Assembly: GCA_008363265.1 (NCBI GenBank)
Contig: RHKR01000027.1
Span: forward strand, 1-12,138
Source: Chlorobiota bacterium
Lineage (GTDB): Bacteria; Bacteroidota; Ignavibacteria; Ignavibacteriales; Ignavibacteriaceae
Length of the DNA stretch: 12,138 bases
Direction: 5' to 3'
In this document: in pieces, positions 499-12,138 of the stretch
How positions within the stretch are numbered: position 1 is the stretch's first letter
Layout: each line of letters starts with the position of its first letter
The notes under the pieces: model-generated
Told to the model about the DNA's origin: nothing
The model's input: the letters and a program-made list of their open reading frames with translations, nothing else
Database searches by the model: none
Made by a program: the position numbers and the translations under genes

Positions 499-2346
499 TC
501 AGGGCAACAACACCTTTTTGAACTGCTCCATGTCGACATGGTCGGTCCAGTTGTCGAGGAGGGGGGTGCCTGAGACGCGTCCTCCGAAGCCCATGAGGCG
601 GTGGACGAACATCATTATTTCCGTGGTTTTTACATCCTTTAGTCGGTTTTCATAGACTTTCGCGTTGAACTTGGCAGTCAGGTCGAGTGTCTTTTTCGCC
701 ATGAAGGTGTTGAGTCTCTTCTGGAAGAGGTAGTTGGCCAGGAGGGATTTGGAGTTTTCGAATTCCTTTTTCAGCGAGTCGTTCATCTCACGCTTTTCCT
801 TTACCATCAGAAGGGAGTAGCCGTCGCCCCTTTTGATCGGTCCGTAGAGCTCGCCGGGGTTTAATTTTGAGGCGATAATGCCGATGTCACCGAGGAAAAC
901 TGCGGGCTTGAGTCCTGTCTCTCCATTGGCATTAACGAGAGTATCGGTCTTGCCGTACTCTTTGATAACAGACTCGAACGTTTTTCCCGCGGAAGTTTCA
1001 TTGATCACTTTTTCCATTATCCCGAGATCACTAACGGTGAGAAGGAGGAGGTTAACGAGGAGGAAGTCCTTGTCCTTGAGGACCTCATCGCGGTAGTAGT
1101 TTTCAATATCCTTCTCGCTCACGCGAACAGAGTCGAGGAACGAAACTTTCAGCATCTGAGCCATCATATTCTGTTTCCACTCTTCGAGGTCACGGATAAC
1201 TTCCGGTGAACTCTGAAGGGCCTGCCGTTTTGCTTCAAATGTTAGTATCTGCTGCTGCACGAAGTCCTTCGCCAGTCTGCTCAACTTTTGGTATACCGCG
1301 GCACGGTCGCGAGAGGTGAACCGGTGCTCCTCGAACGTAAGGTTCGCGAGGAAGTCCCAAACGGTTACCGTTTCATTATCGATAAAAAAGAGCTTCTGTT
1401 GAAGTACCGGTTCGCCCAACCCTGTGCGGATCCTTCGCCAGTCAGAATCGTTCAGCACGACCGCGGAGTCACCCGTTCCCGCAGGAGGAAACGGTGCATT
1501 TGAGATCGCCTCATAAATTTTTGCTGCCGCTGCTTTGAAAGCGGTTTCGTCGATATTGATCGTTCTGCCGCCAGCGAGCTGTTTGAGGAAAGCACGTGTG
1601 GCGTGCATTGCCCTGCGGTCCTTCACGGTCTGCTTCGCCTGATCGGTCTGTTTCTTGTCGGTGAGGTCGAAGGCGGTGGTTACAATGTTGTCGATCCGGA
1701 AAATCACCCAGCCTATTTCACTCCTGACCGGAATGGAAACCTCACCCGGATTAAGTTTGAAAAGGTGGTCTTCCACTTCCTCATCCATCAGTGTACCGAG
1801 GTTGATATCCACCGGACTCCCTTTAATGCCCGCGAAACGCGGAAGTTTAAGAAGGGAATCAAGTTTTGCCGTGGCGGATGCTTTCAGTGAACCTACAAGA
1901 TCATTGATAGCCGCCGAATCCTGAGAGACAAGGGATGTTGTTTTAAGTGTTCTGCCGGCTTTGAAGATAGTGTTCGTAACATCTTGTGCTGAGAGTAGTA
2001 TCTTAGCCTGTACTTCTTTTTTAAAGAGGGCATCACGGAGGAAAATATCCTCCACGGGGTTAAAATAGAATCTGAACTCTTCATTCCGGTCGAGCCCGCG
2101 GTCGAGCCCCTCGAGGTACCACAGTTTTTCCGTGACCATCGAGTAGAGGAAGTCAGCCTTGAGGGAATCGGTATTGGTGCCCGCCCTTTTGGAGACGAAG
2201 GGGGAGAGTTCGAACCTGGACTTAAAATCGCGTGCGGTAATTTTGGCCCGGCCGGCCTCGGCGAGGACCGTGTTGGGGTCCTGCGCGAAAATTGTTGAAA
2301 AAAGAAGGAGGGAGAGAAGTGGGATTAGCTGTTTCTTTTTGATCAT
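499..2346 (-). CDS. Periplasmic SurA/PpiC-like peptidyl-prolyl isomerase (parvulin-type chaperone)
   Basis: A 615-residue exported protein. Residues 1-21 are a signal peptide (MIKKK, then a leucine-rich core, ending IFAQ), so it acts in the periplasm. The architecture resembles SurA: an N-terminal helical region, then two parvulin-like segments. The first lies at about 120-220 and ends in LNPGEVSIPVRSEIGWVIFRI; the second lies at about 408-519 (VSEKDIENYYRDEV, later LNPGELYGPIKRGDGYSLLMVKE). The LxPGE..gP...gdGY..l.V signature is typical of PpiC domains. The middle of the first copy (residues 130-180) is divergent, so it may be a chaperone module without catalysis. The known family role is folding or escort of outer-membrane and secreted proteins. 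The gene overlaps the end of the GH5 gene by ATGA (2343-2346), which implies translational coupling. An escort role for the secreted hydrolase or an outer-membrane partner is my inference. The C-terminal tail (570-615) was not recognised. Confidence 0.8.
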   Translation of the reverse strand: MIKKKQLIPLLSLLLFSTIFAQDPNTVLAEAGRAKITARDFKSRFELSPFVSKRAGTNTDSLKADFLYSMVTEKLWYLEGLDRGLDRNEEFRFYFNPVEDIFLRDALFKKEVQAKILLSAQDVTNTIFKAGRTLKTTSLVSQDSAAINDLVGSLKASATAKLDSLLKLPRFAGIKGSPVDINLGTLMDEEVEDHLFKLNPGEVSIPVRSEIGWVIFRIDNIVTTAFDLTDKKQTDQAKQTVKDRRAMHATRAFLKQLAGGRTINIDETAFKAAAAKIYEAISNAPFPPAGTGDSAVVLNDSDWRRIRTGLGEPVLQQKLFFIDNETVTVWDFLANLTFEEHRFTSRDRAAVYQKLSRLAKDFVQQQILTFEAKRQALQSSPEVIRDLEEWKQNMMAQMLKVSFLDSVRVSEKDIENYYRDEVLKDKDFLLVNLLLLTVSDLGIMEKVINETSAGKTFESVIKEYGKTDTLVNANGETGLKPAVFLGDIGIIASKLNPGELYGPIKRGDGYSLLMVKEKREMNDSLKKEFENSKSLLANYLFQKRLNTFMAKKTLDLTAKFNAKVYENRLKDVKTTEIMMFVHRLMGFGGRVSGTPLLDNWTDHVDMEQFKKVLLP

Positions 2347-3551
2347 TTAAGTCCGAGGGCTTTCAGGTATTCGCTGTTTACTGTGCAATTCTTAAGTTTG
2401 ATATTCTCGAGATAATTCCAAAGTATCTCTTTCACTTTGGGATAATCGAGTTTGCTGTCGCGAATATAACCATAGGAGACGTCAAAATTTTTGGCAAAAT
2501 TTATGATAGTCTCATAACCTTCGGGGGGAGAGACCGAAAGGATGCCGCGGGGGCTGTCGAGCTTCTTATAGGGCCAGAAAGCCCAGCCAACGTTGTCATT
2601 TTCAAGGGTTTGTCTGAATTCAGAGATCCATTCATTGGTATTTTCACCCGATTCCCCCATCCAGATCGCGGCATTGTACTTGTCGCGGAACTCGATGTAG
2701 TGCATGATCACATCGCGGGTTGCGGGGGTCCAGTACTTATGGAAGGTGTAAACCAGTTTATCATCGAACGGGGGTCCGAAAACGGAGAAATCGCTGTCCC
2801 ACTGAGCACCGCCGAGTATTATGATGTGGTTCCTGTCAACTTTTCTTATCTCTTCTGTCACCCTTTTGTAGAAGGGTTCGAGCAGCGGGTTCAGCTTTTC
2901 CTTGTCGAAATAGTGAGCTATCGGCTCGTTGAGGATGTCATAGCCGATCACAATGGTTTCGTTCGCGTAGCGTTCTGCGAGATGTTTCCATATCTTGACT
3001 GTCAGGGCAGTATTCTCTTCTGACTCGAAGAGAAAAGGGTAACCGTAACTGTCGTCGATGTTGTCGCCTGTCTGTCCGCCGGGGGCGCAGTGCATGTCGA
3101 GCACCACGGGGAGGTTAACTTCCCGGCACCACTTCACGGCACTGTCCAGGAGGGCATAGCCGGGACCCTCGAGCCGGTATTCAGGAGCCGAACCGACAAA
3201 AAGGCGGTAATTGAAAGGAACGCGGACCGAATTGAATCCGCGTTCCTTTATGAATTTTATATCGTCGCGAGTGATGTAATCTTCTCTGAACTTTTGCCAG
3301 AACCGGTTGGCTTCCGCCTCACCGAGGAGGATGTTGAAAAGGTCGGTGATCAGTCTGGGGGAGCTGATCTTGTCGAACTTGAACATGTATCCTTCGGGCA
3401 CGAGCCAGTTGCCGAGCCCTATCCCTTTCAGGAGTATGGGTTTCCCTTCCGGGTCAACGATCTCTTTCCCTTTTACTGAGAAGAACCCTGTTGTCTGCGG
3501 AAAAAGCTGAACTGTCAGAAACAGAAAAATTACAAGCCGCGCTAATATCAT
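2343..3551 (-). CDS. Secreted glycoside hydrolase family 5 (cellulase-superfamily) enzyme
   Basis: A 402-residue enzyme with an N-terminal signal or anchor sequence (residues 1-20, ending LFPQT), expected in the periplasm or outside the cell. Clan GH-A/GH5 hallmarks appear in order: the opening DPEGKPILLKGIGLGNWL (33-50), FNSVRVPFN with R110 (106-114), LDMHCAPGGQ with H154 (151-160), YDILNEP with acid/base E209 (204-210), FHKYW (270-274), the nucleophile E300 in IWMGESGEN (296-304), and WAFWPYKK (323-330). It is therefore a retaining beta-glycosidase with both catalytic glutamates present. The GLGNWLVPEGYM opening recalls the exo-1,3-glucanase/endoglucanase side of GH5, but the polymer attacked cannot be fixed from sequence alone. 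The gene starts 12 nt after the permease stop, with AAAAGAGAA as a weak ribosome-binding site, and overlaps the SurA-like gene by 4 nt. It probably supplies sugars to the permease encoded upstream. Confidence 0.92.
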   Translation of the reverse strand: MILARLVIFLFLTVQLFPQTTGFFSVKGKEIVDPEGKPILLKGIGLGNWLVPEGYMFKFDKISSPRLITDLFNILLGEAEANRFWQKFREDYITRDDIKFIKERGFNSVRVPFNYRLFVGSAPEYRLEGPGYALLDSAVKWCREVNLPVVLDMHCAPGGQTGDNIDDSYGYPFLFESEENTALTVKIWKHLAERYANETIVIGYDILNEPIAHYFDKEKLNPLLEPFYKRVTEEIRKVDRNHIIILGGAQWDSDFSVFGPPFDDKLVYTFHKYWTPATRDVIMHYIEFRDKYNAAIWMGESGENTNEWISEFRQTLENDNVGWAFWPYKKLDSPRGILSVSPPEGYETIINFAKNFDVSYGYIRDSKLDYPKVKEILWNYLENIKLKNCTVNSEYLKALGLK

Positions 3552-3563
3552 TATTGTTCTCTT

Positions 3564-4880
3564 TTATGCTGCTTTCTTCTCGAATGAAGGGGTACTCCCT
3601 ATCATTCCGTAATAGGCAATGAAGATATAGCAGATCACTGGAAGAATAAATGCATGGTGAATTCCTATACTGTCAGCGATAACACCCTGAACAACAGGAA
3701 TGAGCGCGCCACCCACGATAGCCATGCAGAGGATGCCGGAAGCCTGTCCGGTGTGTTTGCCGAGGCCTTTGATCGCGAGCGAAAAGATGGTCGGGAACAT
3801 GATAGAATTGAAAAGTCCAACGAGCAGTATCGACCACATCGCGACATTTCCATCAGTAAGCATTGAAATAACCACAAGAATTGCAGCCATAACAGCATTG
3901 AAGCCGAGCACAGTCCCCGGTTTGATCATTCTCTGAATGGCCGAGCCGACAAATCTTCCGACCATCGCGCCGCCCCAATAGAATGAAACAAGCTTTCCTG
4001 CGTCAACCTCGAGCATCGAGGGGTCGAGTGTGAGGAAGTAATTCACGAGGAAGCTGCCAATGGCCACTTCGGCACCTACATAAACGAAAATACCGACCGC
4101 GCCGAGGGTCAGGTGTTTGTATCCCCATGCTGAGGGGTGGAGATCATCGTAGGTGGTTTTGCTTCCATCGGTTGACTCAACACTCTCCGCCTCGATCTGC
4201 GGAAGTTTTATGAAAGCAAAAACCGCAGAGAGGATCAGGAGAACTGCCGCGAGTCCGAGATAAGGGAGCTGAACTGCTGCAGCTTCTGCGGCTTTGTAGA
4301 GCTCGAGGTCGGCCGGTGTCATCTTTGCCATCTCTTCGGTGGTCTTTACGGCTGTCGAAAGAATGAGAAGTGAACCGAAGTAAGGGGCCACCGTTGTACC
4401 GAGGGAATTGAAAGCCTGTGTCAGGTTGAGCCGTGATGAGGCTGTTTCAGGTTTCCCGAGGATGGTCACATACGGATTCGCCGCAACCTGAAGTATCGTG
4501 ATACCCGCCGCCAGAATAAAGAAGGCGAACAGAAAAACAGGATACGAGCGCATACCTGCTGCAGGGTAGAAAATGAGAGTGCCAATACCCGCGATCAGAA
4601 GACCGATCACGATGCCTTTCTTGTAGCCGACCTTTTCAACGAGTGTACCCGCCGGAAGCGACACGAGGAAGTAGGCAACAAAAAAAGTGAACTGCACCAG
4701 CATCGATTCGGTGTAGTTCAGCGAAAAGACACTTTTCAGGTGTGGAATCAGGATATCATTAAGACATGTCAGGAATCCCCACATGAAGAAGAGCGAGGTG
4801 AGGATCGTCAACTCGGGAGTATAATTTCTGTTGGTCCCGCCGGCTTTAAGATTGCCGGTATTGGTAGCTGTGGTAGCCAT
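3564..4880 (-). CDS. Sugar MFS permease of the FucP/GluP family (glucose/galactose type)
   Basis: A 438-residue inner-membrane protein with about 12 hydrophobic segments. The family signature is clear: [20 protein letters not shown] in TM1 (30-49, with N41 D42), [15 protein letters not shown] (76-90), [12 protein letters not shown] in TM4 (131-142), [21 protein letters not shown] (149-169), and [21 protein letters not shown] (362-382). D42 aligns with the proton-coupling aspartate of E. coli FucP. The FucP glutamate before AANP is replaced by Q131, which fits the glucose/galactose (GluP) branch better than L-fucose. The start ATG has GGAGAA at 4885-4890, a good Shine-Dalgarno. It is the first gene of the minus-strand operon with the GH5 and SurA-like genes. 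A palindrome pair and a weak sigma-54-like element lie upstream, so it may be induced by the divergent two-component system. The exact sugar is uncertain. Confidence 0.92.
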
Positions 4881-4926: not shown

Positions 4927-4942
4927 TTCAATAATTGTGCCT
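4927..4942 (-). promoter_or_regulatory. Weak sigma-54-like -24/-12 element ahead of the sugar permease operon
   Basis: Read on the minus strand, the element is AGGCACAATTATTGAA. The -24 half (GGCAC) matches the sigma-54 consensus TGGCACG-N4-TTGCW well. The -12 half is TTGAA instead of TTGCA, so the normally conserved GC is GA, although the 10-nt spacing from the GG is correct. Transcription would start near 4916, giving a leader of about 36 nt. The paired palindromes at 4995-5031 lie about 86 and 108 bp upstream, where NtrC-type enhancers are usually found. The mismatch at -12 keeps confidence low. Confidence 0.35.
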
Positions 4943-4994: not shown

Positions 4995-5009
4995 TTATCA
5001 TTTTGATAA
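4995..5009. promoter_or_regulatory. Candidate response-regulator binding site 1 (TTATCA-TTT-TGATAA)
   Basis: A perfect inverted repeat with 6-bp arms and a 3-nt spacer, in the divergent spacer between the permease and sensor operons. It shares 13 of 15 bases with the site at 9537-9551 upstream of the symporter. A second copy follows exactly 22 bp downstream. I infer that it is an enhancer for the sigma-54 response regulator encoded at 7924-9381; no binding has been shown. Confidence 0.55.
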
Positions 5010-5016
5010 TTTTCAG

Positions 5017-5031
5017 TTATTAAAATAATAA
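5017..5031. promoter_or_regulatory. Candidate response-regulator binding site 2 (TTATTA-AAA-TAATAA)
   Basis: A perfect inverted repeat with 6-bp arms and a 3-nt spacer, 22 bp (two helical turns) from the site at 4995-5009. It shares 12 of 15 bases with the site at 9515-9529. It is all A/T, so alone it would be weak evidence. The support comes from its exact spacing, which repeats that of the pair upstream of the symporter. Confidence 0.45.
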
Positions 5032-5058
5032 GTCTTTAATAAAGTATAGAATTAAATT

Positions 5059-5075
5059 TTCACCGATATGGTGAA
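5059..5075. promoter_or_regulatory. Operator-like palindrome TTCACC-GATAT-GGTGAA upstream of the sensor operon
   Basis: A perfect inverted repeat with 6-bp arms and a 5-nt spacer, in the only GC-containing patch of this part of the spacer. It ends 10 bp before a TATATTTG -7 box and 43 bp before the start codon of the sensor gene, so a protein bound here would cover the -33 region. No matching copy was noticed in the other intergenic regions. It could instead form a small hairpin, but it lies upstream of the expected transcript start. Confidence 0.45.
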
Positions 5076-5085
5076 GTGAAAAATC

Positions 5086-5093
5086 TATATTTG
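5086..5093 (+). promoter_or_regulatory. Bacteroidota-type -7 box (TATATTTG) of the sensor operon
   Basis: TATATTTG fits the TAnnTTTG -7 consensus used by the primary sigma factor of Bacteroidota and relatives. It lies 25 bp before the start codon at 5119, which gives a very short leader. No clear TTTG -33 element is present at the usual distance; the palindrome at 5059-5075 occupies that place. The Shine-Dalgarno is weak (GGA at 5108-5110). Confidence 0.4.
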
Positions 5094-5118
5094 CAATTAT
5101 TCATTCCGGAAATTTTTA

Positions 5119-6432
5119 ATGAACCTCGAAAAGATCTTCTACCTTGTCGCCAGCACGGTGCTTGTTACGGTGTTCGTGCTGATAGTTTTCATATTCTCTC
5201 CCGTCTCTTATGAAGAGAACATGACGGCGCGCGAGAAGGTGATCTACTATGCCGACAACATCTCCCCCGTGATGAAGAAGATCATCGCCCGGTTCAATGA
5301 TGAAAACAGGGGGAAGATCAGGGTTGAAACTATCGACCTTCCTTTCGAAAAGTTCAGCACCAACGAGAGAAAGGAACTGCTGGCCCGTTACCTTCGGAGC
5401 AAGAGCAACAGGATCGATGTTTTCAGCGTTGATATCATCTGGGTACCGAGGTTTTCCCGGTGGGCGAGGCCTCTGAATGCTTTGATCGACAGCAGCACGG
5501 TCGGCAGTATTATTCCCCATTTCCTTCCGACAAGTTACTATAAAGACTCCCTCGTTGCCATTCCGCACTATATCGATATTGCCCTGATGTTCTACCGTGA
5601 CGATCTTCTAAAAAAAGTGCCCGGATACGGTCAGTATGAGAAGGAACTGGCAGGATCGATCACATGGGAGAGGTTCGCGGAGTTAAGATCGGCCGTTGAC
5701 GCGGCAAACAACCGGGTGAATAAACCGTTCTATGTCTTCCAGGCCGAGGCCTACGAAGGGTTGATGTGCAGCTTCGTTGAAGTGATGGCCAACCTGCACA
5801 ATCCCGTGGTTGTGGAGAAGGGGCGACTGGGGAAGGATGACGCCAAAACCACCGCGGCGATCGAATTTATAACAGATCTTGTACACCGCAAAAGCCTTTC
5901 CCCGCCTGAAGTTGCCGGAATGAAGGAAAACCAGAGTTATGAGTTTTTCTTCGCGAACGACGGATTCGCGGTCAGGGGCTGGCCCGGATTCATGGGAAAA
6001 ACGAACACATCTTTCAGGGATGAGTTCAGGGGAAAAGTGAAAGCGGCACCACTTCCGCACCTAAACGGGTCGAAGCCTGCTCAGGTGTTCGGAGGATGGA
6101 ATCTGATGATATCGAACCTGTCTGTTAATGTACCGGAAGCCATAAAGTTTGTCGAGTTCCTCCTCTCAGACGAGATACAGAAACTTCATTATGAGGAGGG
6201 GAACATACTCCCTGTCAAGAGAAGCGTTTACGCCGATGCAGCCTTTGTCGCCAAGCACCCCGAACTTTCGTTTTATGAAAAGCTTTTTGAGGCCGGTGTC
6301 TACCGTCCGATGTTTGAGAACTACACCTTGGTCTCTGATCTGATCGTTCAGTATCTGAACAGGGCGATCAGGGAAAATATGGCTCCTGCCGCTGTGCTGG
6401 AAGAGATAAACGCGCACTTCAGGGGGAATTGA
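5119..6432 (+). CDS. Membrane-anchored family-1 extracellular solute-binding protein, probable sugar sensor
   Basis: A 437-residue protein with a hydrophobic N-terminal segment (about 6-27). There is no lipobox cysteine and no evident signal-peptidase site, so it is probably anchored in the inner membrane with the binding domain in the periplasm. The rest is a family-1 sugar-binding fold: FSVDIIWVPRFSRWARPLN (102-120), SLVAIPHYIDIALMFYRDDLL (144-164), ITWERFAEL (181-189), AVRGWPG (284-290), and GGWNLMISNLSVNVPEAIKFVEFLLSDEIQ (325-354). Aromatic candidates for sugar stacking are W108, W116, W288 and W327. Such proteins usually feed ABC importers, but none is encoded here. The gene is followed after 1 nt by a histidine kinase and then a response regulator. 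I infer a ligand-sensing partner of the kinase rather than a transport component. The fold is clear; the sensing role is contextual. Confidence 0.85.
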   Translation: MNLEKIFYLVASTVLVTVFVLIVFIFSPVSYEENMTAREKVIYYADNISPVMKKIIARFNDENRGKIRVETIDLPFEKFSTNERKELLARYLRSKSNRIDVFSVDIIWVPRFSRWARPLNALIDSSTVGSIIPHFLPTSYYKDSLVAIPHYIDIALMFYRDDLLKKVPGYGQYEKELAGSITWERFAELRSAVDAANNRVNKPFYVFQAEAYEGLMCSFVEVMANLHNPVVVEKGRLGKDDAKTTAAIEFITDLVHRKSLSPPEVAGMKENQSYEFFFANDGFAVRGWPGFMGKTNTSFRDEFRGKVKAAPLPHLNGSKPAQVFGGWNLMISNLSVNVPEAIKFVEFLLSDEIQKLHYEEGNILPVKRSVYADAAFVAKHPELSFYEKLFEAGVYRPMFENYTLVSDLIVQYLNRAIRENMAPAAVLEEINAHFRGN

Positions 6433-6433
6433 A

Positions 6434-7906
6434 ATGAAAAAGAACATTGTTGACAAGATCAAAGAATACCATTTTGAGTTCCGGCATGTAACCGTACTCT
6501 TCATTATACTTTTCTCGTTCCAGCTACTGGTCTCGTTCATAAACAAGTCATCGATCCGCGAGTTTCTGGAGACAACTCAGGACTGGTATCAGAAGGAATC
6601 CGCCGAGGAGATAGCCAATCTTACCGCCACGGCCTTCGAGCTGGGAATCGAGTCGATCAACCCAAATGAGCGCACCTCACCCGAGCGTGAGAGGCAGATA
6701 ATCCAGGCTTTTGATATAATATACAGTCAGCAGCAGCTCACTCACAACGTTCAGAAACTGGTTCTGATTTTCCAGAAGGGGGACAGCATCGCGGTCCTGA
6801 ACGATGGCTCGGCCCTTTACAGCGCTCTGGTACGAAAGGTTACCCCCGGAAGCAAGGCCGGCCCTGACAGTGAAGTTGAAGAGCTCTACCGTACTGTTGA
6901 GACCGATCTGAAGGCAACCGAGAGGATAAAGAGCATTATCCCCGGCAAGGAGACGTTCCATATCTTTGTTCCTTTCGTGATAAAAGGTGAGTTTATGGGA
7001 GCGATATACATGCTTATCCAACCCGACTTCAGTTCGATCAGCAACCAGGTTATCAGCTCGTATGACGAGACCTCGGTTATCTATCTTTCGCTTATCACCC
7101 TTGGTCTGCTCGCCATGTATTTCATTTCATCCTACACTGTAAAGGAAAGGGATGAGACCCAGAAACTCTTCTTTGAAGAGCATGAACAGAACCTTAAGAA
7201 GCAGATCAACTATGAGAATGAACTGACCTTCACAAAGAGGATATACCACACTCACCACAAGGCGGAGAAGGTTATGGGTTTCATCAAGGAGGACCTCAGA
7301 ACCCTCGAAGCCGGGAATATTGATGAAATTAAATACAGGGTAACCAAATACTCAAATTTCGTCTCCCGCGTTATCTACGATATGAAGTGGTACGATCCCC
7401 CGATCCAGACCATCAGAAACCAGATATTCCGGACGAACCTGAACGAAGTTGTTATTTTTATAGTCGATAATATCTTTCGCCGCACCTCAACGACGAGTGA
7501 AGATTTCAGGATCGAATGTGAGTTGGAACAGAATTTGCCTGTGGTTAATGTAAATGAGTTCGTCGTGTGGGAAATTCTTGAGCCACTGATCCAGAACAGT
7601 ATCGATCACGGAAGCGATCCCGGGTTGGTGGTTACCGTATCCACAGAACACGACAAGGAAGAAGGCTGCTCCCGGTTGATGATAAGCGACAACGGCAGCG
7701 GTATCGATCCCGAACTGCTCGTAACCGGGGAGGAGGGGATAAAAAAACTTTTTATGGAGAGTACCACGACCAAGACCCAAGGCCTCAGAAACGCCGGTTA
7801 CGGCTGTTACATCGCTTACGAAATGACGAAAAGGTGTGGTTGGGAACTCGATGCCGCAAACCTTCCTGAAAAAGGTTGCAGATTCACTATTACGATAAAA
7901 CATTAA
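6434..7906 (+). CDS. Transmembrane sensor histidine kinase with a non-canonical H-box
   Basis: A 490-residue kinase. TM1 lies at about 19-36 and TM2 at about 214-234; between them is a periplasmic domain of about 175 residues. Its end (KETFHIFVPFVIKGEFMGAIYMLIQPDF, 172-199) looks Cache-like. A coiled stretch (236-265) leads to the phosphotransfer region, which reads IYHTHHKAEKVMGFIKEDL (270-288) instead of the usual HELRTPL. H272, H274 and H275 are the candidates for phosphorylation. The ATPase domain is complete: N box EPLIQNSIDHG with N388, G1 box SDNGSGID (418-425), and G2 box NAGYGCYIAYEM (453-464). The gene begins 1 nt after the sensor gene, with AGGGGG (6421-6426) as ribosome-binding site, so the two are surely co-transcribed. 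It is expected to read the solute-binding protein and phosphorylate the next gene's product. Confidence 0.9.
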   Translation: MKKNIVDKIKEYHFEFRHVTVLFIILFSFQLLVSFINKSSIREFLETTQDWYQKESAEEIANLTATAFELGIESINPNERTSPERERQIIQAFDIIYSQQQLTHNVQKLVLIFQKGDSIAVLNDGSALYSALVRKVTPGSKAGPDSEVEELYRTVETDLKATERIKSIIPGKETFHIFVPFVIKGEFMGAIYMLIQPDFSSISNQVISSYDETSVIYLSLITLGLLAMYFISSYTVKERDETQKLFFEEHEQNLKKQINYENELTFTKRIYHTHHKAEKVMGFIKEDLRTLEAGNIDEIKYRVTKYSNFVSRVIYDMKWYDPPIQTIRNQIFRTNLNEVVIFIVDNIFRRTSTTSEDFRIECELEQNLPVVNVNEFVVWEILEPLIQNSIDHGSDPGLVVTVSTEHDKEEGCSRLMISDNGSGIDPELLVTGEEGIKKLFMESTTTKTQGLRNAGYGCYIAYEMTKRCGWELDAANLPEKGCRFTITIKH

Positions 7907-7923
7907 GATTTGGAGAGTATTAA

Positions 7924-9381
7924 ATGATCTACCAGGACAAGAACATCAGCATCCTCCTGATAGAAGATGAAGAGTTTGATGTAAGAAGGGTGAAGAACAC
8001 GGTTGCCCCCTTCGAGGATAAGATGCAGATAGTCAATTTTGTCTCAAACGGCAAGGCCGCGCTTGATTATCTGGCAGACCACAAAGATACCATCGATATC
8101 GTGATAATGGACTATCAGATATCGGGCGGACTTATGGGCGAGGATCTGATCCGCAAGATTAAAGAGATCGATTCCACCATCCAGATCATCGTTATTACCA
8201 AAATGACGATCAATCTCTCTGATTACCATTTCGCCAACAAACTTATAAAGGCGGGTGCTTTCTGGTACTGTACCAAATACCCGGGCGATATAGACGATTA
8301 CATCTATCAGCCGACCGATTTTATCCTCAGCATCTTCAATGCGCACGAGAAATCGATCCTTGAGAGGGAGCGGAGCCGCTCGCTGCAGAAGATCAAGCGG
8401 AATGTTGAAGACATACTGACTCAAAAGAGGATAATCGGTGAGTCGCCTCTGATGCTCAGCCTGAAATCCGACATCGAACGCCTGGCGCAGAGCAACATCA
8501 ACATTTTGATCAAGGGATCTTCAGGCACGGGAAAGGAACTGGTGGCGCATAACATTCACTACAGAAGCGGCAGGAAGTATGAAAACTTTGTAGTGGTAAA
8601 CTGCGGCAGCCTTCCCGAGCAACTGGTTGAAAGTGAGCTTTTCGGCTACGAAAAAGGTGCTTTTACGGGGGCCGACAGGAAGAAGCCCGGGCTGTTCGAA
8701 ATAGCCAATCACGGCACAATATTCCTCGACGAGATCACCGAACTCCCCCTTTCAGCCCAGGTAAAACTGCTCCGTGTGATCCAGGAAGGGGAGATAGAAA
8801 AGATCGGCAGAACCGAGACCGTTAAGGTTGATGTGAGGGTTATCGCCGCCACAAACCGCAATATCGAGCAGGAAGTGAAGGAGCGCCGTTTCAGGGAAGA
8901 CCTTTATTACAGACTGAACGTTCTGCCTGTGGTTGTACCCGACCTTAAGAAGAGGGGTGATGATATTCCACTTCTCATCGACCATTTTCTCCACAACATC
9001 AGCGTTGACATGGGGAAGGAAAAACCGTCCATTCCCGGGGATACGATGAAGGTATTCACGGGGTACGACTGGCAGGGAAATGTCCGCGAACTTAAGAACG
9101 TGGTTCAGCGCGTTCTCTTTCACTCCGACGCCACCGTCTCGCCGGTCGAGGCCACCCGGGCGCTCGGTCTCAGCATCGACACCGGCAGCAATGACGACAA
9201 CCTGAAAGACCTGTTCAATCCCGACAACATCATGGACCTTAAGGATGCTGAAAAAATATTCCGTGAGCGCTATTTCAATTTCGTGCGGATGTACAGTGTT
9301 TCCGACTCCGATGCCGCCAAGAAGATGGGCCTCGCCCCGCCCAACTATTACCGGATGATGAAAGAACTGGGGTTGAAGTAG
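7924..9381 (+). CDS. NtrC-type sigma-54-dependent response regulator
   Basis: A 485-residue transcription activator with three domains. The receiver domain (about 8-140) has acidic residues E14-D15-E16, phosphoacceptor D63 (IVIMDYQ), T92 and K118. Its post-D63 loop (SGGLMGEDL) is longer than usual, and K118 lies in TKYPGD rather than TKP. The AAA+ domain (about 168-400) has Walker A GSSGTGKE (198-205), an intact sigma-54 contact loop GAFTGA (245-250), Walker B TIFLDE (265-270), FREDLYYRL (323-331) and WQGNVREL (383-390). The C-terminal Fis-like helix-turn-helix lies at about 460-483 (SDAAKKMGLAPPNYYRMMKEL). The gene follows the kinase by 17 nt with GGAGAG at 7912-7917. It is a bona fide sigma-54 enhancer-binding protein. 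Likely targets are the symporter promoter at 9614-9629 and the permease operon, through the paired palindromes. Confidence 0.96.
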   Translation: MIYQDKNISILLIEDEEFDVRRVKNTVAPFEDKMQIVNFVSNGKAALDYLADHKDTIDIVIMDYQISGGLMGEDLIRKIKEIDSTIQIIVITKMTINLSDYHFANKLIKAGAFWYCTKYPGDIDDYIYQPTDFILSIFNAHEKSILERERSRSLQKIKRNVEDILTQKRIIGESPLMLSLKSDIERLAQSNINILIKGSSGTGKELVAHNIHYRSGRKYENFVVVNCGSLPEQLVESELFGYEKGAFTGADRKKPGLFEIANHGTIFLDEITELPLSAQVKLLRVIQEGEIEKIGRTETVKVDVRVIAATNRNIEQEVKERRFREDLYYRLNVLPVVVPDLKKRGDDIPLLIDHFLHNISVDMGKEKPSIPGDTMKVFTGYDWQGNVRELKNVVQRVLFHSDATVSPVEATRALGLSIDTGSNDDNLKDLFNPDNIMDLKDAEKIFRERYFNFVRMYSVSDSDAAKKMGLAPPNYYRMMKELGLK

Positions 9382-9407
9382 TTTAGTTTACCACAAAGGC
9401 ACATGGA

Positions 9408-9428
9408 AAATGTGAAATGTGAAATGTG
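9408..9428. repeat. Three perfect tandem copies of AAATGTG
   Basis: Three contiguous identical 7-mers (9408-9414, 9415-9421, 9422-9428) followed by a degenerate fourth (ATCTGTG). Short tandem heptamers of this kind can change copy number by replication slippage. No coding or regulatory role is evident. Confidence 0.8.
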
Positions 9429-9443
9429 ATCTGTGTTTGAGAA

Positions 9444-9464
9444 CTCATGACTCATCGCTCATCA
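9444..9464. repeat. Three near-identical tandem heptamers CTCATGA / CTCATCG / CTCATCA
   Basis: Three adjacent 7-mers sharing CTCAT (9444-9450, 9451-9457, 9458-9464). The unit differs from that of the neighbouring AAATGTG array but has the same 7-bp period, 15 bp away. Confidence 0.7.
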
Positions 9465-9514
9465 CTTGCTTTGTGTCTTTCCCGAAGGGACAAGCGTGAC
9501 TTTGTGGTGAATAA

Positions 9515-9529
9515 TTATTAAATCGATAA
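9515..9529. promoter_or_regulatory. Candidate response-regulator binding site 3 (TTATTA-AAT-CGATAA)
   Basis: An imperfect palindrome of the TTATYA-N3-YRATAA form, 13 of 15 bases identical to the next copy 22 bp downstream. Its centre is about 118 bp upstream of the predicted sigma-54 transcription start of the symporter, a typical enhancer distance. Confidence 0.5.
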
Positions 9530-9536
9530 GAGACGG

Positions 9537-9551
9537 TTATTAATTTGATAA
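9537..9551. promoter_or_regulatory. Candidate response-regulator binding site 4 (TTATTA-ATT-TGATAA)
   Basis: The second member of the symporter pair, centred about 96 bp upstream of the predicted start. It matches the divergent-spacer site at 4995-5009 in 13 of 15 bases. A further half site, TGATAA, lies at 9577-9582. Confidence 0.55.
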
Positions 9552-9613: not shown

Positions 9614-9629
9614 TGGCATGATTTGTGCA
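9614..9629 (+). promoter_or_regulatory. Sigma-54 (-24/-12) promoter of the symporter gene
   Basis: The sequence TGGCATGATTTGTGCA has the invariant GG (9615-9616) and GC (9627-9628) separated by exactly 10 nt. It differs from the consensus TGGCACG-N4-TTGCW at only two positions. Transcription should start near 9640, about 21 nt before the start codon at 9661. The gene just upstream encodes a sigma-54 activator with an intact GAFTGA loop, which makes a functional promoter likely. Confidence 0.75.
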
Positions 9630-9660: not shown

Positions 9661-11289
9661 ATGCCTAATTCATTCACATATCTTGATGCCATTGTAATAG
9701 TTCTTTACCTGATTGCGGTATTGAGCATCGGCTTTTATTATTCGCGCAAGAATGATGAAAGCTACAGCGGCTATTTCCTCGCCGGGAAGAACACCGGATG
9801 GATCGCCATTGGCATCTCGATCTTTGCCACCAATATCTCCAGCGAGCATTTTATCGGTCTCGCGGGTGCCGGTTCGCTCAGAGGTCTGGCAGTGGGGCAG
9901 TTTGAATTGATGGCCATTTTCACCCTTATCTTCCTTGGGTGGTTCCTCGCGCCATTTTACCTGAAATCGGGCGTTTATACGGTCCCGGAGTTTTTAGGGT
10001 TGAACTTTGATGTCAGAATGCGGAAGATATTCGCTACTTTCTCAATAGTTATTTATATCCTCACCAAGATCCTCGTCTCCCTGTTCGCGGCGGGGCTCAT
10101 CTTCTACAGCATTTTCGGCATAAATATTTACGCCACTTCAATTTTGATCGTTCTTATCACGGGATTATACACCGTTATCGGCGGTTCACACGCGGTCATC
10201 CGCACTCAGGCATTTCAGGGTGTTGTTCTGATCGCAGGAGCGGTTGTTTTGTCCGTACTTGGTTTCATAGCGGTTGGCGGGTTTGACGGACTTTACTCCA
10301 GACTACCCGCTGATTTTTTCACAATGTTCAAACCGGCATCCGATCCCGATTATCCCTGGACGGGGATAGTGTTCGGCGCGCCGGTGATAGCTTTCTGGTA
10401 CTGGTGTACCGATCAGTACATGGTGCAGCGGATGCTTGGCGCACGCTCGATCGAAGATGCACGCAAGGGCACACTTCTCGCGGCCTCATTCAAACTCCTT
10501 CCGATCTTCATTCTCGTTATCCCCGGACTTTTTGCAGCGATACTCTTCCCCGAAGCGAAGGGAGACGGTGCATATTCCGCGCTGCTCAACGGAAATATAG
10601 TTCCGATAGGTCTGAAAGGCCTCGTGATCGCGGGTCTGCTGGCGGCGATAATGTCGTCACTTTCGGGGGCTTTCAACAGCATCGCGATACTGTTCACGAA
10701 CGATTATTACAAATTAAAATACCCCAACACATCGGAGAGGAAGCTTGTACTTGTCGGCAGGCTCGCTACAACACTTGCAGTGATCGCGGCAATACTGATC
10801 GTACCTCTTGTAAAAGTTATCAGCTCGCAGCTCTATCTCTTTCTGCAGAGCGCCCAGTCGTTTATTGCACCCCCGATAACCGCGGTATTTATATTCGGGC
10901 TTTTTTCACGCAGAATGAACACCCGCACGGCGCTGATCACGCTCGCCGTTACAGAGACGATCGGAGTGGGAAGACTGCTGCTTGAACTTTTGAAGGCCGG
11001 AGGCACTGAACTTTCTGTTGGTCTTATGGCGATAGCTGAAATAAACTTTCTCCACTTCTCTGTCGCACTTTTTGCGATAAGCGTGGGGATGATACTTACA
11101 CTTAGTCTGGGTGAAAGCCGTGAGAACAACCGTTTCGCCCTTCAGTTCAGACAGTCAGTTTCGGAAAGCATAACCGAGATCAGGGGAAATTTCGCCCGCC
11201 TGAACAGGGTGGGGAAGCTTAATTCAAGTTTCGTACTCTCGGCCATCATCCTTATCGCCATAATCGGGGTCTGGAGCATCTGGTCATGA
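9661..11289 (+). CDS. SSS-family sodium/sugar symporter (SGLT-like)
   Basis: A 542-residue inner-membrane protein with about 14 hydrophobic segments, the last at 523-541. It aligns by motif with the Vibrio galactose symporter vSGLT: ATNISSEHFIGLAGAG (56-71), QFELMA (80-85), GVYTVPEF (104-111), WYWCTDQYMVQRMLGA (246-261), GLLAAIMSSLSGAFNS (325-340) and FLQSAQSFIAPPITAVFIFGLF (394-415). The sugar-site residues N58, E82, K278 and Q396 and the Na2-site residues A56, I59, A329, S332 and S333 correspond to those of vSGLT. H63 replaces the vSGLT glutamine of AEQF, so the ligand may differ. It should import a hexose or related solute with sodium. An in-frame TAA at 9652 rules out an earlier start; the ribosome-binding site is poor (AAAAAGAG abuts the ATG). 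It is probably driven by the sigma-54 promoter just upstream. Confidence 0.93.
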   Translation: MPNSFTYLDAIVIVLYLIAVLSIGFYYSRKNDESYSGYFLAGKNTGWIAIGISIFATNISSEHFIGLAGAGSLRGLAVGQFELMAIFTLIFLGWFLAPFYLKSGVYTVPEFLGLNFDVRMRKIFATFSIVIYILTKILVSLFAAGLIFYSIFGINIYATSILIVLITGLYTVIGGSHAVIRTQAFQGVVLIAGAVVLSVLGFIAVGGFDGLYSRLPADFFTMFKPASDPDYPWTGIVFGAPVIAFWYWCTDQYMVQRMLGARSIEDARKGTLLAASFKLLPIFILVIPGLFAAILFPEAKGDGAYSALLNGNIVPIGLKGLVIAGLLAAIMSSLSGAFNSIAILFTNDYYKLKYPNTSERKLVLVGRLATTLAVIAAILIVPLVKVISSQLYLFLQSAQSFIAPPITAVFIFGLFSRRMNTRTALITLAVTETIGVGRLLLELLKAGGTELSVGLMAIAEINFLHFSVALFAISVGMILTLSLGESRENNRFALQFRQSVSESITEIRGNFARLNRVGKLNSSFVLSAIILIAIIGVWSIWS

Positions 11290-11351: not shown

Positions 11352-12138
11352 ATGAAAAGAATCGTACTGTCAATTCTTTTTCTGATCGGACTTTCAACTC
11401 AGGCACTGCCTCAGATCATTGAAAGTTTCGATACTCAGATAGACCTTGACTCCACCTACCAGTGGCTCGTCGAAGGTCCCAACAGCCGTATCGATTACTC
11501 TGTTAACACTACAGATGTTAAACAGGGTACAAGCTCGGCTGACTTTAAATTTGTTATCGGATCTGTCCACGAGTGGGGAAGCTACGGTCAGTTGGTCAAA
11601 AGACTCCCCGCCGGGCAGTATTTTGACTGGCAGGCCACCGACTCACTGGCCCTCTGGATCAAAGTGATCACCGCCCCGGCAATTCCGGTTAACATGGTTT
11701 TCAGGATCCACATCGCCGACAGGCCAACCCCTGAAGCACCGATAGAAGAGTGGGTCTATGAACACACCACAATTCTTGACGCGACCAGCGACTGGATCGA
11801 GCTCAAAATACCGATCAAGATCCTCGCTACTGACGGAAGCCTTACACCTGTTGATTCAGGTTTTGTTATCTTCCCTTCAGGCTGGGGCGGCGGACCAAAC
11901 AACTTCTGGAACAACCAGGAATTTGACTGGGACAAGATCGTAGGTTACAACATCAGCGCGATCACCTCCGGCTACACACCCGGTACCAATCTTCCTGCCG
12001 ACTCTGTTGCAGTTAGAATGGACGGATTCAGAAGATACGGAAACAGGTCTGTTCCCGCAGTAGTATTCAATGGTCTCCAGTTCATGGGTAACCTATCCGG
12101 CTTCAGCTGGGGTCAGTCGAACCTCGAAGTTGTTACCG
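11352..12138 (+). CDS. Secreted, probably carbohydrate-binding beta-sandwich protein, 3' end cut by window
   Basis: The first 262 codons of an exported protein that continues past the right edge. Residues 1-18 are a signal peptide (MKRIVLSILFLIGLSTQA). The region at about 22-228 begins IIESFDTQIDLDSTYQWLVEGP, then has DVKQGTSSADFKF, EWGSYGQLVKRL, FDWQATDSLALWIKV, TSDWIELKIPI and VAVRMDGFRRYG. This resembles galactose-binding or CBM11-like jelly-roll domains, whose pattern is a G-x-x-S beta strand, a WG aromatic patch and then DxLxxWIK. Another segment begins near 236 (VVFNGLQFMGNLSGFSWGQ), possibly a repeat. The start has GAGGA at 11341-11345. It lies 62 bp after the symporter with no promoter or terminator seen, so it is likely in the same transcript. 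Surface binding of the sugar polymer is inferred; a C-terminal secretion signal, if any, is outside the window. Confidence 0.75.
   Translation, partial: MKRIVLSILFLIGLSTQALPQIIESFDTQIDLDSTYQWLVEGPNSRIDYSVNTTDVKQGTSSADFKFVIGSVHEWGSYGQLVKRLPAGQYFDWQATDSLALWIKVITAPAIPVNMVFRIHIADRPTPEAPIEEWVYEHTTILDATSDWIELKIPIKILATDGSLTPVDSGFVIFPSGWGGGPNNFWNNQEFDWDKIVGYNISAITSGYTPGTNLPADSVAVRMDGFRRYGNRSVPAVVFNGLQFMGNLSGFSWGQSNLEVVT

Follow-up and report, generated by a model that had tools for sequence, protein, structure and literature searches.

A putative double-palindrome enhancer of a sigma-54-dependent sugar-uptake and glycan-breakdown regulon in Ignavibacteria

Introduction

In Pseudomonas, i.e., in a phylum different from the one treated here, AatJ/AauSR-type systems for amino-acid uptake are made up of a solute-binding protein, a kinase and a sigma-54 response regulator. 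The present analysis concerns genes for an extracellular solute-binding protein, a sensor histidine kinase and a sigma-54 response regulator in a 12,138-nucleotide stretch of an Ignavibacteriaceae metagenome-assembled genome (contig RHKR01000027.1; the whole stretch is hereafter called the window), together with two pairs of palindromes upstream of transporter genes in the same stretch. Each pair is very probably the enhancer (i.e., the upstream activating sequence, UAS) of a sigma-54 promoter, providing two sites for the response regulator of a sugar-responsive three-component system.

Among the closest described systems (the papers are cited for parts of their text), CuaDSR of Ruminiclostridium cellulolyticum is a three-component system that senses cellobiose and controls its uptake (PMC10384115). 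The window has in common with it that solute-binding protein (a second one in CuaDSR), histidine kinase and response regulator are encoded in one cassette (PMC10384115). In the sigma-54 regulons of Clostridiales, multiple UASs per promoter are common and most UASs are located 100-250 bp from the promoter (PMC6615313), while the enhancer sites of NorR at norVW of E. coli provide the scaffold on which the AAA+ oligomer is assembled (PMC2941729). As for the Ignavibacteria, Melioribacter roseus grows on cellulose and other polysaccharides, and the cited parts of its genome paper describe no such regulon (PMC3534657). Likewise, the name "Ignavibacter" is absent from the main text of a survey of sigma-54 regulons across phyla (PMC12316311), and a search outside the subscription journals found no literature that treats sigma-54 or histidine kinases in Ignavibacteria or Melioribacter. 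The regulon and its motif are new, and the kind of element, a sigma-54 enhancer, is already known.

Results

Two palindrome pairs with equal spacing in the window

The sites follow the 15-bp motif TTATYA-N3-YRATAA, and pair spacing was measured from centre to centre. As an earlier note on this DNA had claimed, four sites in the window match the motif without mismatch and form two pairs with a spacing of 22 bp each. The sites, promoter elements and genes concerned are:

4995..5009, no strand: palindrome A1, exact motif match; near site for the permease promoter
5017..5031, no strand: palindrome A2, exact motif match; 22 bp from A1
9515..9529, no strand: palindrome B1, exact motif match
9537..9551, no strand: palindrome B2, exact motif match; the nearer site to the symporter promoter, 22 bp from B1
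4927..4942, minus strand: -24/-12 element AGGCACAATTATTGAA of the permease unit, with A1 at 54 bp from its GG
9614..9629, plus strand: -24/-12 element TGGCATGATTTGTGCA of the symporter unit, GG 64 bp from B2
3564..4880, minus strand: major facilitator superfamily (MFS) permease of the GluP/FucP type (Pfam MFS_1), first gene of target unit 1
5119..6432, plus strand: extracellular solute-binding protein (Pfam PF01547), proposed sugar sensor
6434..7906, plus strand: sensor histidine kinase (Pfam HATPase_c)
7924..9381, plus strand: sigma-54 response regulator (receiver, AAA+ domain with GAFTGA, C-terminal helix-turn-helix (HTH)-like tail), proposed binder of the pairs
9661..11289, plus strand: sodium:solute symporter (Pfam PF00474; TIGR00813 above cut-off), first gene of target unit 2

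Pair A (4995-5031) occupies the spacer between the minus-strand MFS permease gene and the plus-strand solute-binding-protein gene, and pair B (9515-9551) that between the response-regulator gene and the sodium:solute symporter gene. The two-unit layout of the earlier note stood in so far as both pairs are located upstream of transporters, but since the spacer of pair A is divergent, this pair also faces the operon for solute-binding protein, kinase and regulator. Re-measuring the distance from each near edge to the GG of the -24 element returned the same values (54 bp on the permease side, 64 bp on the symporter side). The -24/-12 elements themselves were recovered at both units, with the qualification that the symporter element reads GG-N10-GC but the permease element GG-N10-GA in place of the usual GC.

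The gene between the pairs does encode a sigma-54 activator, with a receiver domain (PF00072, residues 10-118, 46.2 bits vs. a cut-off of 30.2), an AAA+ sigma-54 interaction domain (PF00158, 237.8 bits) and a GAFTGA loop visible in the translation. Its best-scoring NCBIfam family was NorR (335 bits, below the equivalog cut-off of 476), and the C-terminus of its relatives carries a conserved HTH-like tail. With up to two mismatches allowed, the window contained 17 strand-counted matches to the motif vs. 5.36 expected, the maximum of 200 shuffles being 15.

A third pair in the same genome

The genome of the window (3.44 Mb in 627 contigs, 82% complete) encodes RpoN (PF04552, 185.9 bits, G000:C514) and carries the exact site at eight distinct places, the reversed control yielding three forward and two reverse matches. 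Six of these exact sites form three 22-bp pairs that are all situated in spacers, and the remaining two (C78, C395) fall within open reading frames (ORFs). The genome-wide scan for paired sites that the earlier note had suggested, allowing up to three mismatches, gave exactly three places and none for the reversed control, and all three were upstream of -24/-12-like elements. Because the genome is 82% complete, three is a minimum. The third pair (G000:C13:5875-5911, locus L006) lies outside the window, 77 bp from TGGTACGATTGTTGAA, a -24/-12-like element that is followed by the gene for a 545-aa protein with a type IX secretion system (T9SS) sorting tail, so that the pair-to-element distances in this genome are 54, 64 and 77 bp.

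Conservation and distribution of the pairs

The nearest named relatives of the regulator come from metagenome-assembled genomes labelled Ignavibacteria, Ignavibacteriales, Melioribacter or Bacteroidetes, and 80 of 142 confirmed stretches were kept as named loci; the counts given throughout treat related sequences as independent. With at most one mismatch per site, the 80 named loci contained 40 close pairs at 22 bp, 15 at 23 bp and 8 at 21 bp, any other spacing within 10-60 bp giving no more than three, and three control patterns (reversed or rearranged) gave no pair at 22 bp. At the level of genomes, strict pairs were present in 34 of 80 members of the family (reversed control: 1/80) and in 65 of 164 members of the order (reversed control: 2/164). 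A phylum-wide draw of 395 genomes revealed the pair in 22 of 40 inside the order and in 1 of 355 outside it (split counted by hand).

Comparison of the spacers among related genomes, likewise suggested in the earlier note, showed that the pairs are conserved at related loci. Specifically, the permease/solute-binding-protein spacers of relatives that match the one holding A1 contain pairs as well (e.g., L176 4995-5031, L182 6142-6178). A survey of 52 fetched stretches, the window and L006 comprised 81 pairs (75 without mismatch, six with one), none of them inside a called ORF. The 22-bp spacing was the commonest in this survey (51/81) but not the only one, as relatives range from 21 to 23 bp (11 pairs at 21 bp, 19 at 23 bp). 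Three-site arrays in a 22-23 bp register were seen in L072 (15702-15851) and L107 (15460-15518), and spacers with two pairs for divergent promoters in L147 (4313-4438) and L072 (15702-15851).

Co-occurrence with the regulator

Regulator presence was scored at E <= 1e-130 among the first 19 (family run) or nine (order run) candidates per genome, the family result being 36/80 both times. In the family, 36 of 80 genomes had the regulator, 34 had pairs and 32 had both; in the order (164 genomes), the regulator was found in 90, pairs in 65, both in 62 and neither in 71, corresponding to a phylogeny-uncorrected Fisher odds ratio of 52. More telling than this ratio is the split within six genera (g1, g3, g11, g12, g17, g24), in which some species have both features and others have neither. 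Moreover, a hand count found a strict pair in 31 of the 32 order genomes whose best regulator match is at least 64% identical, two of these 32 being represented by partial matches. At 79 of the 80 named loci the regulator has a kinase relative within 8 kb, and at 70 of them it is directly preceded by genes for solute-binding protein and kinase.

Discordant genomes of the family were G012, G015 and G016 (genus g6), G002 (g3), G027 (g8) and G064 (g21). The best regulator match was 50% identical in G002, 57% in G027 and 63% in G064, and G064, which is devoid of a strict pair, has a one-mismatch pair beside its regulator gene (L183).

Genes flanking the pairs

The flanking sides that could be classified (n = 98) faced 26 symporters, 25 solute-binding proteins, 19 permeases, 19 T9SS-tailed proteins and nine others; for ten of the 81 pairs no gene began within reach, and these were left unclassified. 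The T9SS-tailed proteins, the query itself aside, were grouped solely by a shared stretch of ca. 90-130 residues, and annotation covered 10 of the 28 rows in the T9SS-tailed and "other" classes. Seven of these ten scanned representatives were glycoside hydrolases (GH2 twice, GH3 twice, GH9, GH16 and GH81), the remaining three being a BNR/sortilin-like protein, a PAS-domain kinase (on a side without sigma-54 element) and the 545-aa C13 protein, in which the scan showed the T9SS tail only and which is left without assigned function. Together with a GH5 protein encoded in the window, the flanking glycoside hydrolases point to beta-linked glycans, and a beta-glucan-type inducer is our guess. The regulon would comprise sugar uptake and glycan breakdown, the glycan probably being beta-glucan.

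Sigma-54-type elements accompany the target genes

Elements were scored with the strict pattern GGYAY-N6-TG within 150 bp of the pair. This pattern was adopted since inspection of five symporter promoters, which a best-score choice had placed at 103-110 bp, showed that each of them has TGGCAT...TGTGA at 72-74 bp; the more distant placement was dropped. A strict element was present on 66 of 73 target sides (mononucleotide-shuffle mean 0.94) but on only 2 of 25 sides facing the solute-binding-protein gene, suggesting that the pair serves the promoters of transporters and enzymes and not that of the sensor operon. All 19 permease sides had an element scoring at least 10.5. These elements, together with the regulator's presence in 62 of the 65 pair genomes, support the earlier suggestion that the pairs may be the enhancer motif of this regulator and define one regulon.

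The C at -12 was found in only 19 of 58 scored regulon elements (T 18, A 16, G 5), even with a scoring that gives C an advantage. Genome-wide, TGGCACRN4TTGM had 46 matches in three genomes of the window's genus vs. four for the reversed control, with a C:A ratio of 30:16 (hand count), TTGA being among the strong matches there; in the four other genomes its matches were near background. From these three genomes, A at -12 seems to be tolerated more widely.

On the sensor-operon side, the motif TATATTTG, which we take to be the Bacteroidota-type -7 element, is located 55 bp from the pair in the window, and 4 of the 24 other solute-binding-protein spacers have it at 45-56 bp. In the five spacers concerned, out of 25 (window, L157, L159, L176, L177), its distance to the edge of the pair is 45, 55 or 56 bp, values that again differ by ca. 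10 bp; autoregulation is possible. Situated between pair A and the TATATTTG motif of the window's solute-binding-protein operon (5086-5093) is a perfect inverted repeat, TTCACC-N5-GGTGAA (5059-5075). Only 3 of 184 fetched loci (L003, L004, L009) share it, each a copy of the window region, so the repeat could reflect either a local operator or chance.

Pair-to-promoter distances fall into two modes

The 68 element distances comprised 16 at 61-65 bp, 38 at 70-77 bp, none at 66-69 bp and 14 elsewhere. The named loci supplied a second set, 33 pairs whose sequences are absent from the first set and which likewise come from relatives; it yielded 29 elements in the same two modes, except for two at 52 and 95 bp. 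Both modes were present within the permease, symporter and T9SS-tailed classes, so promoters of the same class differ by ca. 10 bp, i.e., by one helical turn. In a jitter test the observed value was reached in 0 of 2000 randomisations for both sets, and in a block-wise version of the helical-phase test 14 and 54 of 2000 randomisations were at or above it. Each promoter in the divergent symporter/GH2 spacer of L147 has its own pair, 74 and 72 bp from the respective element.

Weighing the proposed function

A number of observations weigh against the pairs being enhancers read by this regulator. Firstly, 28 of the 90 regulator-bearing genomes of the order have a regulator relative without strict pair, while 3 of 65 pair genomes are without regulator match (G012, G015 and G094; 99, 79 and 84% complete), and genus g6 comprises two pair-only genomes (G012, G015) next to one regulator-only genome (G016). 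Secondly, the Pfam scan gave no HTH match at the C-terminus of the regulator, and the HTH-like tail is nearly identical at 40 loci with pairs (window included) and 41 without. An attempted link between motif and regulator via tail differences was accordingly dropped; many of the pair-less loci are on short contigs. Given this likeness of the tail in both groups, weaker sites may be in use at loci that have no strict pair. When the 41 pair-less named loci were scanned with a relaxed motif, 22-bp pairs appeared at seven places in six loci and a further locus had a 23-bp pair; the remaining spacings gave at most three, and at 22 bp the four controls gave 1, 0, 0 and 0. Thirdly, with up to two mismatches the double site occurred in 58 of 80 family genomes and its reversed control in 42 (hand count); because of the latter, loose matching was regarded as unspecific and dropped. 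Finally, 7 of 73 target sides lack a strict element (two are the far sides of the L147 double pair, and L182 has TGGCATGATTTTGGCT, which the strict pattern missed), 5 of 19 permease elements lie farther off at 85-126 bp, and, taken alone, the 14 distances outside 61-77 bp have no significant helical phase (290 and 802 of 2000).

The discordant genomes would fit the view that the pairs are sigma-54 UASs recognised by a different enhancer-binding protein, with its gene elsewhere, and that the regulator next to them binds something else. The window's own genome offers candidates, with ten matches to the regulator of which nine are outside the window (two being pieces on one contig). However, none of the three pairs of this genome lies on a contig of these nine matches, the strict pair accompanies nearly every close regulator match (31/32), and 25 of 98 classified sides face the cassette's own solute-binding-protein gene, which renders another activator highly improbable.

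Equally improbable is a role of the pairs as operators through which a classical repressor or a dual regulator, unrelated to sigma-54, would control sugar genes, the -24/-12 elements being incidental. AT-rich palindromes are common operators, and pair A also faces the solute-binding-protein operon with its TATATTTG motif 55 bp off, but incidental elements are hard to reconcile with 66 of 73 target sides vs. 0.94 expected and with preferred distances that differ by about one helical turn.

Chance or low-complexity DNA is a negligible explanation, for although the sites are almost pure AT, the spacers AT-rich and loose matches present in the reversed control, the reversed and rearranged controls (no 22-bp pair in the 80 named loci or in the own genome, which has three) contradict a chance origin of strict pairs, and the single positive among 355 genomes outside the order likewise contradicts the frequent random occurrence that the earlier note had considered.

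Other genes and proteins of the window

Pfam assignments were obtained for seven of the eight window genes. The three not listed above are:

499..2346, minus strand: PPIC-type peptidyl-prolyl isomerase (Pfam PF13145/PF00639), 4-bp overlap with the end of the GH5 gene
2343..3551, minus strand: GH5-family (cellulase) protein (Pfam PF00150), 12-bp gap to the permease gene
11352..12137, plus strand: unassigned protein, cut by the window end (ORF only; Pfam scan without match)

The GH5 gene is probably co-transcribed with the permease gene, and the gene at 11352..12137, which starts 62 bp after the symporter gene, is possibly the second gene of target unit 2. The permease scored above cut-off for NCBIfam TIGR01272 (gluP) and TIGR00885 (fucP) and has the L-fucose-proton symporter 3o7q as structural relative. 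The solute-binding protein is probably membrane-anchored, judging from an N-terminal hydrophobic stretch, and its best solved relative is the trehalose/maltose-binding protein 1eu8; its best solved relatives are named as trehalose or maltose binders, which does not settle the inducer. The histidine kinase (6434-7906) has a clear ATPase domain, and the Pfam scan gave no HisKA match for it.

Discussion

The sites, their geometry and conservation, the sigma-54-type elements and the co-occurrence with the regulator were observed directly; from this co-occurrence, the window regulator is the likely protein to bind the pairs. In the mechanism we propose, an extracellular oligosaccharide would be caught by the solute-binding protein (5119-6432), which would pass the signal to the histidine kinase (6434-7906). 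Dimers of the phosphorylated regulator (7924-9381) would then occupy the two 15-bp palindromes and, since these are two helical turns apart, both dimers would sit on one face of the DNA, which could aid assembly of the AAA+ domains. The assembled activator would bridge a short loop, mostly of 55-77 bp, to sigma-54 RNA polymerase at -24/-12 and open the promoter. The predicted regulon would provide uptake via the MFS permease and the sodium symporter, plus secreted glycan-degrading enzymes. Within this scheme we infer the dimer stoichiometry, the phosphorylation and the beta-glucan-type inducer.

Whether this amounts to an order-wide glycan route of the Ignavibacteria, in which beta-glucan fragments would be sensed and signalled via the kinase to a sigma-54 activator that reads a double palindrome at helical-turn-quantised distances from promoters tolerating a non-C at -12, is a proposition to which we give even chances. 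For a group in which the literature search made here found no sigma-54 regulon work, the analysis offers a candidate regulator with a defined motif, as well as a small regulon amenable to testing, and target genes become predictable in uncultured genomes from sequence alone. Moreover, the two-mode distance spread constitutes a ready data set on the face-of-helix constraint in short-range sigma-54 activation.

Compared with CuaDSR, the regulators differ in type, CuaR being a YesN/AraC-type protein whereas the window regulator is a sigma-54 activator, and uptake involves an ABC transporter in CuaDSR but MFS and sodium symporters in the window (PMC10384115). As for the Clostridiales regulons, enhancer-binding proteins, UAS motifs and -24/-12 promoters were in both cases derived from comparative genomics (PMC6615313). 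Fifteen of the 39 Clostridiales groups use TGT-N10-12-ACA and the others further motifs (PMC6615313). The present motif, TTATYA-N3-TRATAA, is found in pairs of fixed spacing that mostly lie 61-77 bp from the -24 GG, in contrast to the 100-250 bp of most Clostridiales UASs (PMC6615313). Finally, the pairs share with the NorR enhancer that several sites per promoter are proposed as a scaffold for AAA+ assembly; NorR, however, has a GAF sensor domain and three enhancer sites, and the window regulator a receiver in place of the GAF domain (PMC2941729).

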